Of a stretch of DNA of 64,000 nt, positions 8,739 through 64,000 are shown piece by piece; positions within the stretch are counted from its first letter, which is position 1; the number at the start of each line of letters is the position of its first letter. The notes beneath the pieces are model-generated. The model searched no databases. It was not told the DNA's origin and saw only the letters and a list, made by a program, of their open reading frames with translations. A program made the position numbers and the translations under genes. The DNA comes from Streptomyces davaonensis JCM 4913 (GTDB lineage Bacteria; Actinomycetota; Actinomycetes; Streptomycetales; Streptomycetaceae), in assembly GCF_000349325.1 (NCBI RefSeq), contig NC_020504.1, positions 248,001 through 312,000 on the forward strand, in the 5' to 3' direction.

Positions 8739-9750
8739 TCATGTCATCGCGTCGACTTCGACAACGGCGTCGGCGAACGCCCGGGGCTGCTCCTGCGGGA
8801 GGTTGTGGCCTGCGTCGGGGACGACATGGTGGGCCCAGGGGCCCGAGAAGTGCGGGGCGTAGGAGCTGCCGTCCGTGGGCGGGATGACGCCGTCGGCCTG
8901 CCCGTCCAGCGTGACCGCGGGGGCGGTGATCCTCGGCTGGCCCAGCAGCTTCCGTTCCGGACCGGAGCAGCGGGGGTCACCGGCGGCCACGGCGAGGCGG
9001 TGACGGTAACTGTGGATCACGACGTCGACGTAGTCCGGATTGGCCCACAGCTCCGCCGCCTGCGCGAACTCGGCCTCGATGAAGCGCCATTCGGGCGAGT
9101 TGCGTCGCCAGACGACGCGCGCCAGGTCCTCCCGGTTGCGCTGGAGCCCCTTTCGCCCGCGCTCGGTGGCGAAGTAGAAGAAGTACCAGTACCCCAACTC
9201 CGTCGCAGGGGTGAGCGGTTCCTGCGCGAGGGCCAGGTTCTGGATGAGGTAGCCGTTCACGGAGACCAGTCCGGTGCACCGCTCCGGCCACAGCGCCGCG
9301 GCCACGTCGGCGGCCCGCCCACCCCAGTCGTACCCGGTGAACAGGGCCTGGGGAACGCGCAGGGCATCCATGAAGGCGACCACGTCCGCGCCGAGTGCCG
9401 CCTGCTGACCGGACCGGAAGGTGTCCGCGTGGAGGAATCGGGTCGCTCCGAGGGATGTAGCAACGGTATCCCCGGCGGACGAGCGCGGGCGCCACCTCGG
9501 CGTAGGAGCCGACCGGGCTGAAGGGCCAGCCGTGCAGCAGGATCACCGGTTTGCCGCGCGTCGACCCCACGTCGTGATAGGCGATGTCCAGAACGTCGGT
9601 GCGGGTGTGCCGCACCGGTCCCAGGTCGCGTTCGGTCCGGCCGGCCGGCGCCGCCGCGGTGCCCGGCAGCGCCGACGCCTGGGGCACGCCGATCGCTCCC
9701 GTCACCGTTGCCGCCGTCATGAGCTGGGTCAGTCTCCGTCTGCTGATCAT
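8739..9750 (-). pseudogene. Tat-exported epoxide hydrolase-like alpha/beta hydrolase, frameshifted
   Basis: The start is ATG 9748-9750 behind GAGGAA. The N-terminus MISRRRLTQLM is a twin-arginine signal, followed by HGWPFSPVGSY (oxyanion region). After GYRCYIP the frame is lost. Compared with the intact paralogue at 13005-14072, roughly a dozen bases coding YLRGHG are missing near 9455-9465. The protein then continues in another frame as ATRFLHADTF, the nucleophile-bearing GYDWGGRAAD, and the catalytic His in DAGHNLPQE. The small deletion leaves no single reading frame. A sequencing error is less likely than with a one-base shift, since several codons are gone. Confidence 0.8.
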
Positions 9751-57451: not shown

Positions 57452-57566
57452 ATGAGTAATCACTTGGATGCACCTGTCACACCCGTCGAGGCCTTTGAAC
57501 CCCCCTACTACGTCGCCGTCTTCTCCACGGTTCGCAGCCACGACCAGAGTGAGGTTCCCCTCCTAC
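57452..57566 (+). pseudogene. probable ABM-domain N-terminus cut by the IS3 element
   Basis: ATG 57452 opens MSNHLDAPVTPVEAFEPPYY, then VAVFSTVRS, which resembles the start of stress-type ABM monooxygenases. After HDQSEV the coding sense ends at the insertion, and no continuation is found beyond the element at 58859. Low-confidence assignment. Confidence 0.35.
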
Positions 57567-57600
57567 TGTGGAGACCGTGACCGGAGGGATAGTTGGGGTC

Positions 57601-57934
57601 ATGGCATCCAAGGAGCGCCTCTACGATGCAGAGTTCCGCGATGGGGGCGGTACGGATCGTGATGGAGACCGGGAAGTCGATCCCGGAGGTGGCCGCGGAT
57701 CTGGGCATCCATTCCGGGACACTGCACAGCTGGGTGTCGCGGGCGAGGCGTAACGGGTCACCGTCGTCGGACCGGCCGGTGGCCGAGGCGTCGCCCGGTG
57801 GTCGGCTGCGGGAGAGTGAGCGGGCGGAGCTGGACCGGCTGCGGGCCGAGGCCAGGGAGAAGGACAAGCGCATCCGCGAGCTGGAGATGGAGCGTGATGT
57901 GTGCAAGCGATTCGTGGCCTTGTGGGTGAAGTAG
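57601..57934 (+). pseudogene. IS3 OrfA, frameshifted by an extra G
   Basis: ATG 57601 gives MASKERLYDAEFRDG, then the frame breaks in the G-run 57643-57647. Removing one G restores AVRIVMETGKSIPEVAADLG, the helix-turn-helix, and the leucine-zipper tail LDRLRAEAREKDKRIRELEM. OrfA gives DNA binding and the partner for frameshifted OrfAB, so mobility is probably impaired. Confidence 0.7.
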
Positions 57935-58842
57935 CTGACGCGGACCCGGCCGTGGCGGTCGGGGTGATCAGCAGCTGCAAGGCCGAGCAGAAGATTCCGT
58001 ACCGCACCGCATTCCGGGCACTTGGGGTGTCGGAGTCGTGGTTCTACAAGTGGCGCGACCGCCCGCCCACGGCGCGGGAGATGCGCCGGCAGCGTCTGGC
58101 GGAGGAGATCGAGGAGATCTTCCGCGGCTCGGGCGGCACCTACGGCTCGCCCAAGGTGTTCATCGAGCTGATCCGCCGGGGCTGGCGGGTGTCGGTGAAC
58201 ACCGTCGCCAAGCTCATGGCCGAACTCGGCCTGGCCGGACGGAAGATCCGAAGGCGCCGGGGCCTGACCCGGCCCGGGAAGCGGGCGGCGGCCCCGGACT
58301 TCGTGCGCCGGGACTTCACCGCCGAGGAACCGGACCTTGTCTGGGCGGGCGACATGACCGGGATCGACACCGGCGAAGGCAAGCTCTACCTCGCCACCGT
58401 CATCGATCTGTTCTCCCGGCGGCTGCTCGGCTACGCGATGGGCGTCCGTCACGACACCGAGCTGGTGGTGGCCTCACTCAACATGGCCGCGGCCACCCGG
58501 GGCGGCGACGTCCGCGGCGTGATCATGCACACGGACAGGGGCAGCGAGTACTGCTCGCGGCGCTTTCGCCGGGCCTGTCGGCGCCTGGGCGTGACCCAGT
58601 CCATGGGCAGAGTCGGATCTTGTTTCGATAATGCCGTGAGCGAGGCGTTCAACAGTGTGCTCAAGGTCGAGTACGTCCACCGACACACCTTCCGCACCCG
58701 CACCGAGGCCCGGATCAGGATAGCCACCTGGATCACCGACTTCTACAACACCAGGCGGCTACACAGCGTATGCGGGTTCAAGAGCCCGATCGACTACGAA
58801 CGCGAGTACCGAGCCACCCTGGCCGAGGGACTGGCCGCATAG
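57901..58842 (+). CDS. IS3-family transposase OrfB (DDE integrase domain)
   Basis: This encodes 313 aa in the -1 frame relative to OrfA and overlapping its end, as expected for programmed frameshifting. HTH_21 region YGSPKVFIELIRRGWRVS; rve core with the first Asp in WAGDMTGID, the second in IMHTDRGSEYCS and the Glu in NAVSEAFNSVLKVE; end YNTRRLHSVCGFKSP. The catalytic triad is intact. Confidence 0.92.
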   Translation: MQAIRGLVGEVADADPAVAVGVISSCKAEQKIPYRTAFRALGVSESWFYKWRDRPPTAREMRRQRLAEEIEEIFRGSGGTYGSPKVFIELIRRGWRVSVNTVAKLMAELGLAGRKIRRRRGLTRPGKRAAAPDFVRRDFTAEEPDLVWAGDMTGIDTGEGKLYLATVIDLFSRRLLGYAMGVRHDTELVVASLNMAAATRGGDVRGVIMHTDRGSEYCSRRFRRACRRLGVTQSMGRVGSCFDNAVSEAFNSVLKVEYVHRHTFRTRTEARIRIATWITDFYNTRRLHSVCGFKSPIDYEREYRATLAEGLAA

Positions 58843-58864
58843 ATCGTCTCCACACTACGAGGGG

Positions 58865-59068
58865 ATTGACAGTGGCGACGTTGTAGTGCTCGTGGAGGTG
58901 GCGGGCGATCGCGGACTCAGCGTCGGCGAGGACGACGTCCCCGACGGCGATCGGCTTTGAAGTGGGCCTCGCCACGCAGGGCGTGCCGGCCTCGGACTCC
59001 CCGTCCGGGGCCGGTTCCTCCGGTACCGCCCTGATCCGCGTACACGACTCCTGACTACTTGCCGCGGA
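58865..59068. other. tail region of the lasso cluster with an unrecognised minus-strand fragment
   Basis: On the minus strand a frame from about 59056 reads EEPAPDGESEAGTPC, then VARPTSKPIAVGDVVLA and HLHEHYNVATVNPL before running into the IS3 end at 58858. It may be the start of a further gene of the cluster that the element interrupted. I do not recognise it. Confidence 0.35.
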
Positions 59069-60886
59069 TCACGCCAGGGGAGGTGGAAGCGGGCCGTTCG
59101 GCGGTGGCACGGCGCGCGTGCGGCCGCGCTCGGCGGCTCCGTGTGCCAGCGCGAGGCTCCGGTAGGCACCGCTGCCGGCGAGGAGTTCGTCGTGTGTGCC
59201 GGTGGCGACGACGCGGCCGTCGTCGAGGGCGACGATCCGGTCCGCGGCCTGGACCGTGGAAAAGCGGTGGGCGATGACCAGGAGGGTGCACTCGCGGCTG
59301 ATCCGGCGCACCGACCGGCGCAGCGCCGCCTCGCTGATCGGGTCCAGCTGGGAGGTCGGCTCGTCCAGGAGCAGCAGCGCGGGCCGGGCGAGCAGTGCGC
59401 GGGCGATGGCGACGCGCTGCCGTTCCCCGCCGGAGATGCGGGCGCCGCGCTCGCCGACATCGGTGTCCAGCCCTTCGGGGAGCCGGTCCACCAGTGCGTC
59501 GAGGTCCGCCAGTGCCACGGCCCGGCGGAGGTCTGCGTCGCCGGCTTCCGGGGCGGCGTACAGCAGGTTCTCCCGCAGCGTGCCGTACAGCACTGGCGCG
59601 TCCTGCTCCACCAGCGCCATGCGGCCGCGGGACTCCGCGCGGTCCATGGCGCGCAGGTCGGCGCCGCCCAGCAGGATGCGGCCGCGGTCGGGATCGTAGA
59701 ACCGCTCGGTGAGGGCGAAGACCGTCGACTTGCCCGCGCCCGACCGGCCGACGAGCGCGGTGGCGTGCAGGGCCGGCACACAGAAGGACACCCCGCGCAG
59801 CACCGGACGGGCCGGCTCGTAGCCGAACCACACGTCCTGGAACTCCAGCACCGAGTCCCCGGTTCCGGCCCGCGGTGAGGCAGGCTCCGCGGCCGGGGGT
59901 TCCACGGGCAGGCGCAGGGCGTCGTTGATGCGCTGGAGGGCGCCGCTTCCCTGCTGGAGGGCGCTCATCGCCTGGAAGACGGCGTCGATCGGCATCACCA
60001 GGTACGTCATGTACAGCAGGAAGGCGACGAGGTCGGCGACCGAACCGTTGCCCTGCGCCACGCGGAGGCCGCCCACCAGCAGGACCACCAGGAACGAGCC
60101 GTTGACGGCGAGCCGGGTCGCCGGGCCGATCACCGCTTCGAGGCGGGCCATGCGCAGGCTCGCCGTGTACGCGGCCCGGGCCTGGGCGGCGATCCGGTCG
60201 CACTCGCGCGGCTCGGCCCGGCTGGCGCGTACCGTTCGGATCGCGCCGAGCGCCCGCTCCATCTCGGCGGCCATGGCACCGACCGACGTCTGCCGGTGCA
60301 GCGAGGCCCTGCGCAGGCCGCGCAGGGCCGACGCCACCGCGAGACCGCCCACGGTCACGAGCACGAGCACGATCAGGAAGAGCACCGGGTCCAGCCACAC
60401 CATGAGCGCCACGGCGCCCGCCACACCCACCACACCGGTGACGGCATCCGCGAACGAGTCGGCCACCAGCCGGCGCACCTCGACGCCGTCCGTGCCGAGC
60501 CGCGAGATCAGATCCCCGGTGCGGTGACGTTCGTACACCGGCATCCGCAGCCGAAGAAGCCGGCCGATCAGGCTGACCCGCAGGCCGAGGGTGACCCGCT
60601 CGCTGGTGCAGGCGAGTACATAGCGGGCGGCCGTCTCCACCACTGCCTCGCCGAGAAAGAGTGCGACCAACGCGCCGACGAGGGCGGCGGAGACGGTGCC
60701 GGTGCCCGCAGTGTCGATGACCTGTCGGACCAGAAGGGGCTGGGCGAGACCCAGCGCGGCTCCGGCGAGGGTCAGCGCGCATGCCGCAAGCACCCAGCGG
60801 CGGTACGGGCCCATCAGGCGCAGGACGTCCCTCAGGCCCGCCCGGTTGTCCGTCGGCTGTCCGGCCTGCTCCCCGTCGTGCGCCAT
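59069..60886 (-). CDS. lasso peptide exporter, ABC transporter (D protein)
   Basis: This encodes 605 aa from ATG 60884-60886. Six membrane helices span residues 20-310. The ATPase has Walker A GRSGAGKST, signature ISGGERQRVAIA, Walker B LLLLDEPTS and the switch His in IAHRFST. It is a half-size fused exporter that works as a homodimer. Being last in the cluster A-C-B1-B2-D, it probably exports the mature lasso peptide and gives self-protection. The C-terminus is Pro-rich. Confidence 0.9.
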   Translation of the reverse strand: MAHDGEQAGQPTDNRAGLRDVLRLMGPYRRWVLAACALTLAGAALGLAQPLLVRQVIDTAGTGTVSAALVGALVALFLGEAVVETAARYVLACTSERVTLGLRVSLIGRLLRLRMPVYERHRTGDLISRLGTDGVEVRRLVADSFADAVTGVVGVAGAVALMVWLDPVLFLIVLVLVTVGGLAVASALRGLRRASLHRQTSVGAMAAEMERALGAIRTVRASRAEPRECDRIAAQARAAYTASLRMARLEAVIGPATRLAVNGSFLVVLLVGGLRVAQGNGSVADLVAFLLYMTYLVMPIDAVFQAMSALQQGSGALQRINDALRLPVEPPAAEPASPRAGTGDSVLEFQDVWFGYEPARPVLRGVSFCVPALHATALVGRSGAGKSTVFALTERFYDPDRGRILLGGADLRAMDRAESRGRMALVEQDAPVLYGTLRENLLYAAPEAGDADLRRAVALADLDALVDRLPEGLDTDVGERGARISGGERQRVAIARALLARPALLLLDEPTSQLDPISEAALRRSVRRISRECTLLVIAHRFSTVQAADRIVALDDGRVVATGTHDELLAGSGAYRSLALAHGAAERGRTRAVPPPNGPLPPPLA

Positions 60887-60905
60887 GATCTCGGCCTCCC
60901 GCCTC

Positions 60906-61322
60906 TCACGGGACCGTGAAGAGAGTCCGGAAGTAGCCGGGCGGGAAGTCCTCGCCGACGGCCACGCCATCGGTCTCCACCCACGCGTGTGCGCCGAACG
61001 GCGAGGTGAAGCGCACCCCTACGCACCAGGTGGGCCAGCGGCGGTGGAGTCGGCACAGCAACACGGTGGCCAGGGACCGGGTGAGGCAGCCCTCGGGCCC
61101 TCCGCAGGCGATGCTGACCGCGACCACTGTGTCCCGTGCCTTCTTCGTCTCAGCCGGTCCGGCGGGGCGGGCGCCGCGCCGGACCACGCAGAGGACACTG
61201 CGGATCCGGCGCGGCGAGCGGGTGGCCAGCAGCCGTGCCGCGCCCACAGCGGCATGGGCCTCGACCCGCTGGAGGAGGGGAACGGAACGAGGATCGTGCA
61301 GGACCGCGCCCTGCATCGTCAT
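60906..61322 (-). CDS. lasso peptide leader peptidase (B2, transglutaminase-like)
   Basis: This encodes 138 aa. The Cys protease core is GGPEGCLTRSLATVLLCRL (catalytic Cys), then GVRFTSPFGAHAWVETDG (catalytic His). Asp or Glu follows in GVAVGEDFPPG. This is the B2 protein that cuts the leader after the Thr-X step while the peptide is held by B1. Its ATG overlaps the TGA of B1 (ATGA). Confidence 0.9.
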   Translation of the reverse strand: MTMQGAVLHDPRSVPLLQRVEAHAAVGAARLLATRSPRRIRSVLCVVRRGARPAGPAETKKARDTVVAVSIACGGPEGCLTRSLATVLLCRLHRRWPTWCVGVRFTSPFGAHAWVETDGVAVGEDFPPGYFRTLFTVP

Positions 61323-61609
61323 CGCGGATCGTCTCCCTGCGGCCCGCCGGGCGTCGTCTCGATCAGCCGGGCCCTCCGGAGGGCGGCGACCAGTTCCTCG
61401 ACGTCGTGCTGCGCGGTGCCGGCGTCGACGGAGTACTCCTGGGCGATCTGCCGTGTGGCCTCGCCGGGCGTACCGCCGTCCAGGAGGGTGCGGAGCACGA
61501 CGGCCCCGGTGGGGTTGAGCGCCCAGTAGTCCCCCGAGTCCTCGTCGAGGAGGGCGACGCCGTCCTCGGTGGGCGCGAGGGACACGTGGCCCCGCAGTTT
61601 CACAGTCAT
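61319..61609 (-). CDS. lasso peptide RRE protein (B1, PqqD-like)
   Basis: This encodes 96 aa with GGAGGAG before ATG 61607-61609. KLRGHVSLAPTEDGVALLDE, then DYWALNPTGAVVLRTLLDGG, is the PqqD-like precursor recognition fold. It binds the YxxP part of the leader (Tyr4-Pro7 in the precursor at 63538) and presents it to B2. Its start overlaps the end of the cyclase gene, and its end overlaps the B2 start. Confidence 0.9.
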   Translation of the reverse strand: MTVKLRGHVSLAPTEDGVALLDEDSGDYWALNPTGAVVLRTLLDGGTPGEATRQIAQEYSVDAGTAQHDVEELVAALRRARLIETTPGGPQGDDPR

Positions 61610-63414
61610 GACTCCTCCTGCTCCTTGGGTAGGCCGGTGAGCGGCCGCTCGATGGCGCGCAGCCAGGTCTCGCAGGCGACGGTCTGGTACAGCACGTCTG
61701 CGCCCAGCCGAGGATCGAGCGGCCGGGCGCAGACGTCCCGCACCGCGTCGGCGTCGATGAGACCCAGGCGGGCGAGGCGGGATTCCTCCCAGAGGGCCAA
61801 CAGCGCTGCCCGGTGGCGGCGCAGGCCCGGCGCCTCGTCGCAGTCGGCCGTGGCCTTGGTCTGCCGTACACGGGTCTCCTCGGGGACGACACCGCGCATG
61901 GCCTCCTGGATCAGCGGCTTGTACCTCCAGGGGGTGATGCGGTCCTCGGGCCGCACGGCGAGACCGGCCTCGATGACGCGGTCGTCGTAGTACGGCGACG
62001 CAACGGTCATCCCGATGCGGGCGCCCATCTCCTCCACCTCGGCGGCCACGCGTGACACGGCCTGCATGGCGGCCAGCTCGCGGTGCTGGCCGCGGCGTCC
62101 GGCCAGCGGCAGCGCCGTGTGTGCGGCCTCCCGGACGAGGTCCCGTACGGCTGTTGCGGCGTCCGGGGTCGTCCAGGGCGGCAGCCGGGGCGTGAAGCCC
62201 CAGGCCAGCAGCGGGTCGTTCAGGGGTGGCTGCGGCTCGACGAGGTGGTCGGCGACGTCGAGCAGCCAGGCGCCGTACGGGCGGCGGTCGGCGAGCTGGC
62301 GCAGCACGGCCGCGCGGGGCCAGCGGTACTTGGCGCAGAAGCCGCGGATCAGGCGTGCCGCGAGCCGGGGGCGGGTCCGTGCGAGGGTGTGCAGGTGAGC
62401 GAGGGATCCGTACAGGAGTTCGTCGCCGCCCATTCCGGTGAGGTGGGTCGTGGACCCCAGATCGGCGGCGTGGCGGACCGTGACGAGTCCGCGCTCGCGT
62501 TCCCCGCCCGAGGTGGGTTCCTCCAGCGGGTCGTCGAGGTTGTGCACGCCCGCGTAGAAGAGCGGCACGTCGGTGGCCGGGATCACGTGGTGCTCGATGG
62601 AGCCGAGCGCGGCCGCGGTGCGCACGGCCCAGGGGACGTCGTCGCCGCGGGCGTCGCGCAGGCCGATCGTGCAGGCCGCCACCCGGGGCGTGCGGTGGGC
62701 CGCGAGGCAGCAGACGGCAGTGGAGTCCAGGCCGCCGAGGTCACAGCTGACCGTGCCGTGGCGGTCGGTCCGTACCGCGACCGCCGCCGCCAGCGCGTCA
62801 CGCAGGGCGGGTGCGCCCTCGGCCATCGGGAGCTCCGGCTCGGGTGGAGTCCACCAGCGCAGGTGCCGGGGCCGTCCCGACTCGTCGATCAGCAGACTGC
62901 TGCCGCCGGGCACCTCGGTCACTCCGCGCCAGACGGGAGTCCGGGTCAGTGGCGGCAGGATGAACGGTTCCAGCAGGCGAAGCGCGAGGCACGGCTCGTC
63001 CAGGGGGAGATCGGCCAGCCGGGCCAGTACGTCGGCGTGGTCGGCGGCCACGGTGATCCCTCTGACGCGGACGTGGCAGACGCGCCGCATCGATGTCACG
63101 GTGCCCTGTATCCGGACCCTGCCGTCGACCGAGGCGATCAGGTGGGCGCTGCCGGGTGCGCTCCGGGCCAGGCCGTCGAGCCGGGCGTGGGGATCCATTG
63201 CGACGCGCCACAGCTCTTTCGTCGTGACCGCGTGCTGGCCGATGACGGCGATGCGGTTGCGGCCCGCCCCGCCGAGAGTCAGGGCATCTTGGGGCCAGTG
63301 ACCGAGAATCCAGGGACGCCCGGAGGCATGGTCGATCTCGTCGACCCGCTCGGGCGTACGGTCCCGCAGGGCCGCCGCGATGGGGGACGCCGGCCGGCAG
63401 TCGGGGAGCACCAC
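61606..63414 (-). CDS. lasso cyclase (asparagine synthetase-like, C protein)
   Basis: This encodes 602 aa read from GTG 63412-63414. The N-terminal glutamine-hydrolase-like fold is followed by the ATP-dependent synthetase. The PP-loop reads SCDLGGLDSTAVC; the family form DLSGGLDST has one more Ser, which is absent here. HLTGMGGDELLYGS and SPYYDDRVIEAGL are normal. It activates the Asp8 side chain and closes the ring. The start is unclear: no ribosome site precedes GTG 63414, while AGGAGGG sits before a GTG at 63454 that is one base out of frame. Confidence 0.85.
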   Translation of the reverse strand: MVLPDCRPASPIAAALRDRTPERVDEIDHASGRPWILGHWPQDALTLGGAGRNRIAVIGQHAVTTKELWRVAMDPHARLDGLARSAPGSAHLIASVDGRVRIQGTVTSMRRVCHVRVRGITVAADHADVLARLADLPLDEPCLALRLLEPFILPPLTRTPVWRGVTEVPGGSSLLIDESGRPRHLRWWTPPEPELPMAEGAPALRDALAAAVAVRTDRHGTVSCDLGGLDSTAVCCLAAHRTPRVAACTIGLRDARGDDVPWAVRTAAALGSIEHHVIPATDVPLFYAGVHNLDDPLEEPTSGGERERGLVTVRHAADLGSTTHLTGMGGDELLYGSLAHLHTLARTRPRLAARLIRGFCAKYRWPRAAVLRQLADRRPYGAWLLDVADHLVEPQPPLNDPLLAWGFTPRLPPWTTPDAATAVRDLVREAAHTALPLAGRRGQHRELAAMQAVSRVAAEVEEMGARIGMTVASPYYDDRVIEAGLAVRPEDRITPWRYKPLIQEAMRGVVPEETRVRQTKATADCDEAPGLRRHRAALLALWEESRLARLGLIDADAVRDVCARPLDPRLGADVLYQTVACETWLRAIERPLTGLPKEQEES

Positions 63415-63537
63415 GAACCATGTCGGCGCCGGTTGTGGAGACGTGCCGCGTCACCGCCCTCCTGCGCGAGACAGACGGGCCGGACCGCAGCACGCCGGCT
63501 GCACCGGCCCGCCAGTGATGTGCGGAATGTGTTGGCC

Positions 63538-63648
63538 TCAAAGGAGCTGGTGCCGGAAGAGCACGTCCTTGGGACCGCGTCCGCCTAGACCGGTGAGGGT
63601 CCTGAAGGAACCCGCCAGGATCAGGGTCGGAGGCTCGTACATACGCAT
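63538..63648 (-). CDS. lasso peptide precursor (A), predicted core LGGRGPKDVLFRHQLL
   Basis: This encodes 36 aa from ATG 63646-63648 behind AAAGGAGG; the ATG two codons on is an alternative. The leader is residues 1-20, MRMYEPPTLILAGSFRTLTG, with the canonical Tyr4-X-X-Pro7, Leu9, Gly13, Phe15 and the penultimate Thr19. Cutting after Gly20 gives a 16-residue core. Asp8 of the core (Asp28) is the only acidic residue and at the standard ring position, so a Leu1-Asp8 macrolactam with tail VLFRHQLL is predicted. No Cys, so class II. The gene is too short for ordinary ORF calling. Confidence 0.88.
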   Translation of the reverse strand: MRMYEPPTLILAGSFRTLTGLGGRGPKDVLFRHQLL

Positions 63649-63751
63649 GCCGTACACCTCCTTTCCACGTTTCCCGTATACCCGTTAATCAAGCTATATC
63701 AGCAAATATGCCATCCTTCCAGGCGGTTTGAATTGGGCGAACCTTCAACTA
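63649..63751. promoter_or_regulatory. AT-rich promoter region of the lasso operon
   Basis: The 100 bp before the precursor are far richer in A/T than the surroundings. It contains the dyad TTGAA-N11-TTCAA at 63728-63748 and the strong ribosome site AAAGGAGG at 63657-63664. Several TATA-like hexamers are present, and none is clearly best. Confidence 0.5.
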
Positions 63752-63994
63752 TTAGGCCGACTTGAAGAGTTGCTCCACCGCGCCCGCGACGGATCCTCGC
63801 GGGAATCGGCCTTCGTGCGACCCTGCCTGCATAGCGACCACCGCGCGATTGCGGGCCGCGCATGTCGAACGTTGAACCAAAAGGTATGCCGTCTCGCCCA
63901 AGTCCCCGAACAGTCCGAGGAGTTCGGGGGCGCCGAGAGGGGTGTAGCCTGCGGCGATGAGCAGCTCCGCCTCCAGCCTGGTGCCGGTCCACAT
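63752..63994 (-). CDS. hypothetical protein, possibly truncated by the window edge
   Basis: At least 80 codons: RLEAELLIAAGYTPLG, ELLGLFGDLGETAYLLVQRS, ending VAGAVEQLFKSA. The ATG at 63992-63994 lies six bases from the end of the window, so the true start may be further on. No family is recognised. It is upstream of and co-directional with the lasso operon, across the AT-rich promoter region. Confidence 0.4.
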   Translation of the reverse strand: MWTGTRLEAELLIAAGYTPLGAPELLGLFGDLGETAYLLVQRSTCAARNRAVVAMQAGSHEGRFPRGSVAGAVEQLFKSA

Positions 63995-64000
63995 CGGACA

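Follow-up and report, generated by a model that had tools for sequence, protein, structure and literature searches.

A probable lagmysin-type lasso peptide cluster in Streptomyces davaonensis, with a shortened ATP loop in its predicted cyclase

Gene content of the cluster

We find that a locus of Streptomyces davaonensis JCM 4913 is, with a probability of about 0.88, a lagmysin-type class II lasso peptide cluster, a reading that draws at the level of sequence on gene content and order, family membership, a lagmysin-type core and a cyclase ATP loop that is one residue short. The short loop and a predicted variation in ring size among the relatives are the parts most worth specialist attention. 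Coordinates are positions in the window, the whole 64,000-nt stretch that was analysed (NC_020504.1, 248,001-312,000), and the five genes of the cluster lie on its minus strand.

The locus holds the sequence features by which we recognise a lasso cluster: a precursor with a lasso leader, an RRE/PqqD-like B1, a transglutaminase-like B2, an asparagine-synthetase-like cyclase and an acid at core position 7-9. The 36-residue precursor is encoded by lasA (63538..63648, stop codon included; NF033521 27.9 bits, cut-off 19; PF19397 35.4 bits, cut-off 22.6). It is followed by the body of the cyclase gene lasC (61606..63414, from GTG 63414, in a frame open up to 63450; PF00733 139.5 bits, cut-off 21), by lasB1 for the PqqD-like leader-binding (RRE) protein (61319..61609; NF033530 109.5 bits, cut-off 70; PF05402 61.2 bits), by lasB2 for the transglutaminase-like leader protease (60906..61322; NF033537 113.9 bits, cut-off 33; PF13471 85.3 bits) and by lasD for an ABC exporter (59069..60886; PF00664 142.2 bits, PF00005 101.6 bits). 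By their coordinates C and B1, and likewise B1 and B2, overlap by four bases, ATGA, as the translationally coupled genes of an operon would. A scan of 58800-64000 for consensus promoters and terminators gave no match to the types it covered.

An earlier sequence-only reading had called the order A-C-B1-B2-D complete. All five genes are present in that order, but the word overstates the case for C, where the usual 5' start stands in another frame than the body. The span given there, 58865..63751, has to be trimmed on the left, where an IS3-type insertion element (57556..58865, plus strand; 20-nt terminal inverted repeats, 90% complementary; transposase domains) ends with its inverted repeat at 58865 and lasD stops at 59069. 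The element, which ends 0.2 kb past the lasD stop, is a neighbour of lasD that stands outside the pathway.

Read from ATG 63648, lasA gives MRMYEPPTLILAGSFRTLTG|LGGRGPKDVLFRHQLL, a leader (63589..63648) and a predicted core (63541..63588) whose boundary is placed from the Thr at -2. The short open frame is as it had been claimed, with YxxP, GxF and Thr at -2, as well as Asp8 in the core, and both family models score above cut-off; by these scores lasA is more than a chance frame. A ribosome-binding site, AGGAGG (63657..63662), lies 8 nt upstream of the ATG and is overlapped by the alternative, mechanically called 39-residue GTG start, so that the 36-residue start is the better one. Across the genome (9.56 Mb, 2 contigs) the NF033521 leader model matches twice, both times next to a lasso cluster, and the B2 model matches at the same two places. 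None of 14 control genomes has a match to the leader model and one has a match to the B2 model, which is therefore not exclusive to the genus. A protein search with the longer lasA frame returned no homologue, which does not amount to absence, since the whole-genome search turned up relatives of the precursor: at E <= 0.001, 20 of the 392 genomes of the genus contain a match, the window's own included.

In lasso peptide biosynthesis B1 holds the leader, B2 cuts it, C adenylates the acid of the ring and forms the macrolactam so that it encloses the tail, and D exports the product and may protect the producer. By analogy we infer the cleavage site, ring, threading and export here: B1 would bind the leader (YxxPxL...GxF), B2 would cleave after Thr(-2)-Gly(-1), C would activate Asp8 with ATP and join it to the Leu1 amino group around the threaded tail, and D would export the 16-residue product (general statements on lasso biosynthesis are found in PMC9266682 and PMC7549694).

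A lagmysin-type core

When the cut follows Thr(-2)-Gly(-1), the core LGGRGPKDVLFRHQLL has 16 residues, with the acid at Asp8. It is equal in length to lagmysin (LAGQGSPDLLGGHSLL, which the table of PMC12427821 places in class II), has the same ring Asp8, and without gaps is identical to it at 8/16 positions (Leu1, Gly3, Gly5, Asp8, Leu10, His13, Leu15 and Leu16), a score that 29 of 200,000 shuffled versions of this core reach. The two systems also share leader type and gene content, and the short ATP loop described below recurs in the cyclases beside exact lagmysin cores (L045 and L046). They differ in the other eight core residues, among which Arg4, Lys7 and Arg12 give the window a basic product whereas lagmysin counts -1, in the cyclase, which shares about 52% identity with its counterparts in L045 and L046, and in the displaced start of lasC. 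The window core lacks Cys and its peptide is thus class II, as that class and a ring acid range of 7-9 are given in PMC9266682.

The term lagmysin-type is a grouping of this analysis, comprising a gap-free 16-residue core with Asp8 and a C-terminal Leu, and a cyclase in the short-loop clade. The window cluster shows both the core and a cyclase of this clade with the shortened loop, and the assertion that its core matches no known lasso peptide does not survive the comparison with lagmysin. The related prediction of a new core holds for the exact sequence and fails for the kind. Neither that sequence nor related fragments, except a lagmysin fragment, appear in the literature searched (most subscription journals lie outside it), and the core stands only as a new sequence within the known lagmysin kind. 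A lagmysin-like cluster, at 80% similarity, is already listed for another Streptomyces in a genome report (PMC11596116).

Among the 19 matching precursors in other genomes, nine cores are of the form xxxxGPKDVLGGKxxL, two are exactly lagmysin, two are LAGTGSPDLLGGHSLL and one is citrulassin-type. The highest identity to the window core is 11/16, found in L038, of the same genus, and in L078 (LGGQGPKDTLVKHQAL), whose core lies in a similar lasso cluster in another class of the same phylum; the lagmysin core type extends, then, to another class of actinobacteria.

Counting Lys and Arg with one C-terminal carboxylate, and taking the ring acid and His as uncharged, the predicted lasso carries a charge of +2. 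The positive charge had been thought unusual, yet by the same count 19 of the 23 clade relatives are net positive (20/24 with the window; 17 of 19 distinct sequences), and the four that count -1 are lagmysin or lagmysin-like, so that a positive charge is ordinary for the group. What the cluster adds to the lagmysin group is a basic member bearing Arg and His.

Ring and cleavage site

The proposed ring from Leu1 to Asp8 gains support by analogy for Asp8 as the probable ring acid, and the Thr(-2)-Gly(-1) pair is confirmed in the sequence. The calculated monoisotopic mass of the 16-residue lasso is 1787.03, with [M+2H]2+ at 894.52 and [M+3H]3+ at 596.68.

Across the 24 clade cores, the window's included, the first acid is at position 8 in 20, at 9 in one (L006) and at 10 in three (L005, L050 and L081, reading GRVKRTGPPD, MALKRKGPPD and MALKRTGPPD under the Thr(-2) rule), all four of the latter loci falling in the same subclade. 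Within the clade, either the Thr(-2) rule has exceptions or rings differ in size, and these three clusters would have either ten-residue rings or a shifted cut. Ten-residue rings, if true, would lie outside the range of 7-9 given for known lasso peptides, and a literature search on lasso rings of ten residues returned no papers. The same three clusters are what could be said for a different boundary or ring in the window itself, for example another cut site or an unthreaded branched-cyclic product. We regard this as improbable, given that the window core has the length and the Asp8 of lagmysin and that the acid is at 8 in most of the clade.

Two further clade precursors, L052 and L079, one from the window's genus and one from another class, have Glu8 in place of Asp8 (LGTTRGPE and LGTNRGPE), and their leaders have one residue fewer between GxF and Thr.

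The cyclase and its ATP loop

The best NCBIfam model for lasC, NF033561, scores 242 bits, below its cut-off of 300, and none passed. The cyclases of L078 (237 bits), of L046 with its exact lagmysin core (248 bits) and of a citrulassin-type cluster (249 bits) are also under this cut-off, and the score therefore points to a gap in the model and is not a mark of the window gene. The structure predicted from GTG 63414 has a pLDDT of 89.6 (93 in the first block) and an asparagine-synthetase fold; a profile search of PDB sequences gave no match, whereas the fold comparison did. Solved structures of beta-lactam synthetase, carbapenam synthetase, AsnB and TsnB9 are 14-19% identical in fold-level alignments, and these enzymes differ from the lasso cyclase in their substrates.

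The ATP (PP-loop) signature of lasC (62719..62742) reads DLGGLDST, one residue short of the ordinary DLSGGLDST. This ATP-pyrophosphatase signature is usually regarded as essential in the enzyme superfamily, to which a clade-wide short loop would be a testable exception. The shortened loop is present in all 119 of the best homologues listed, appears as one change on a quick cyclase tree built without bootstrap, and is accompanied by a lasso precursor beside the cyclase at 24 of 24 short-loop loci read, the window's included. The tree omits L003 (the window itself), L015, whose loop DLSGDLDS is of full length, and L016, whose cyclase matched only in its second half. L049 and L080 are in the tree and were left unlabelled by the motif script; on direct reading L049 is short and L080 long, as their places in the tree predict, the branch of L080 being long. 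A lesion confined to the window gene was considered as the origin of the short loop and rejected, as the other clade members read share this loop.

A DNA pattern written at codon level for the short loop is found in 14 of 392 genomes (a control pattern in one of 392), at places that comprise nine lasso cyclases (L060 and L069 read, seven by locus position) and five unrelated sites; the count is a lower bound only, because the loop of the window itself differs from the pattern in its last codon and is missed. No close orthologue was found among 150 relatives, a search from another centre leading to the same genomes, and no paper describing lasso cyclases with a shortened ATP loop was found by title or start of abstract. 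We suggest tentatively, and well short of even odds, that lagmysin-type cyclases form one clade in which SGG(L/M)DS became one residue short by a single change, that they may bind ATP or time adenylation differently, and that their predicted rings have 8-9 residues and, in three clusters, 10.

The start of lasC

The usual start of lasC appears to have been displaced. A GTG at 63454 with AGGAGG upstream overlaps the body-frame stop at 63451-63453 (63451..63454, minus strand) and lies in a different frame from the lasC body. The body frame has no start codon between that stop and GTG 63414, and the starts that remain in frame, GTG 63414 and the next codon, have no ribosome-binding site that could be seen. 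A Trp-Phe (WF) motif, found by script pattern in 109 of the 119 listed homologues other than the window and by eye in eight more, two being incomplete, stands in the window in the body frame after ten relative-like codons without a start codon, bounded by the same stop. All 25 relatives scored with the motif have a start in the same frame no more than 40 codons upstream of it (nine further rows without the motif were left unscored), and in 20 of them a start precedes the Trp by exactly 12 codons. This constant spacing carries more weight than the presence of a start, since GTG codons often fall in frame in DNA so rich in GC.

With no start in the body frame and GTG 63454 outside it, either the beginning of lasC carries a frameshift or the assembly contains an error at this point; on the reading frames the start looks frameshifted, which puts production of the peptide in JCM 4913 in doubt. 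Gene order by itself is no proof of a working cluster. It is to us a serious possibility, not far short of an even chance, that the cluster is silent or in decay: a genuine frameshift would block the full cyclase, and the precursor, protease and exporter would then yield no mature product. To the evidence of the frames and the relatives may be added the insertion element 0.2 kb past lasD, and both the 99.99% completeness of the genome and the open frames of its second lasso cluster speak mildly against a poor assembly. On the other side, the rest of lasC and the four other genes are open, and the structure predicted from GTG 63414 has high confidence from its first residue, so that a slightly shorter enzyme could work. 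A sequencing error is also possible, there being a single assembly; the window protein is the only member of its large-database cluster, which offers no second strain for comparison. The assignment to a lagmysin-type cluster aside, its function in JCM 4913 is doubtful.

Citrulassins and a second lasso cluster

Like the window core, citrulassin A (LLGLAGNDRLVLSKN in the table of PMC12427821) has Leu1 and Asp8 at the ring positions, its cluster has the gene content A, C, B1, B2 and D, and a Leu1-Asp8 ring is given for citrulassin N in PMC12971885. The genome moreover carries a gene for a peptidylarginine deiminase (PAD; PF03068, 381 bits). We nonetheless consider it very improbable that the window peptide is citrulassin-type. 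Citrulassin A has a 15-residue core, and only 4 of the 15 residues compared are equal; Arg9, the defining feature of citrulassins according to PMC12971885, is Val9 in the window. The citrulassin-type cyclases of L004 and L051 have the ordinary loop DLSGGLDST and are separated from the window's by a supported branch, and the genome has a citrulassin-type cluster of its own apart from this one.

That second cluster, L004 (G000:C1:1365000-1382000), is a complete A-C-B1-B2-D set with a precursor at 8969-9151 on the minus strand and the core LLGRSGNDRLILSKN, which is also listed for Lechevalieria xinjiangensis in PMC12971885. The deiminase gene (G000:C1:8300751-8302055) is distant from both clusters, as described for citrulassin producers, and with this gene in the genome the product of the second cluster may carry citrulline.

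Among the other loci, a contig of Micromonospora foliorum (L012; 5675, plus strand, and about 12914, minus strand) has a second lasso-like precursor, with the leader YEPPALAEVGDF, about 7 kb from the first and on the opposite strand.
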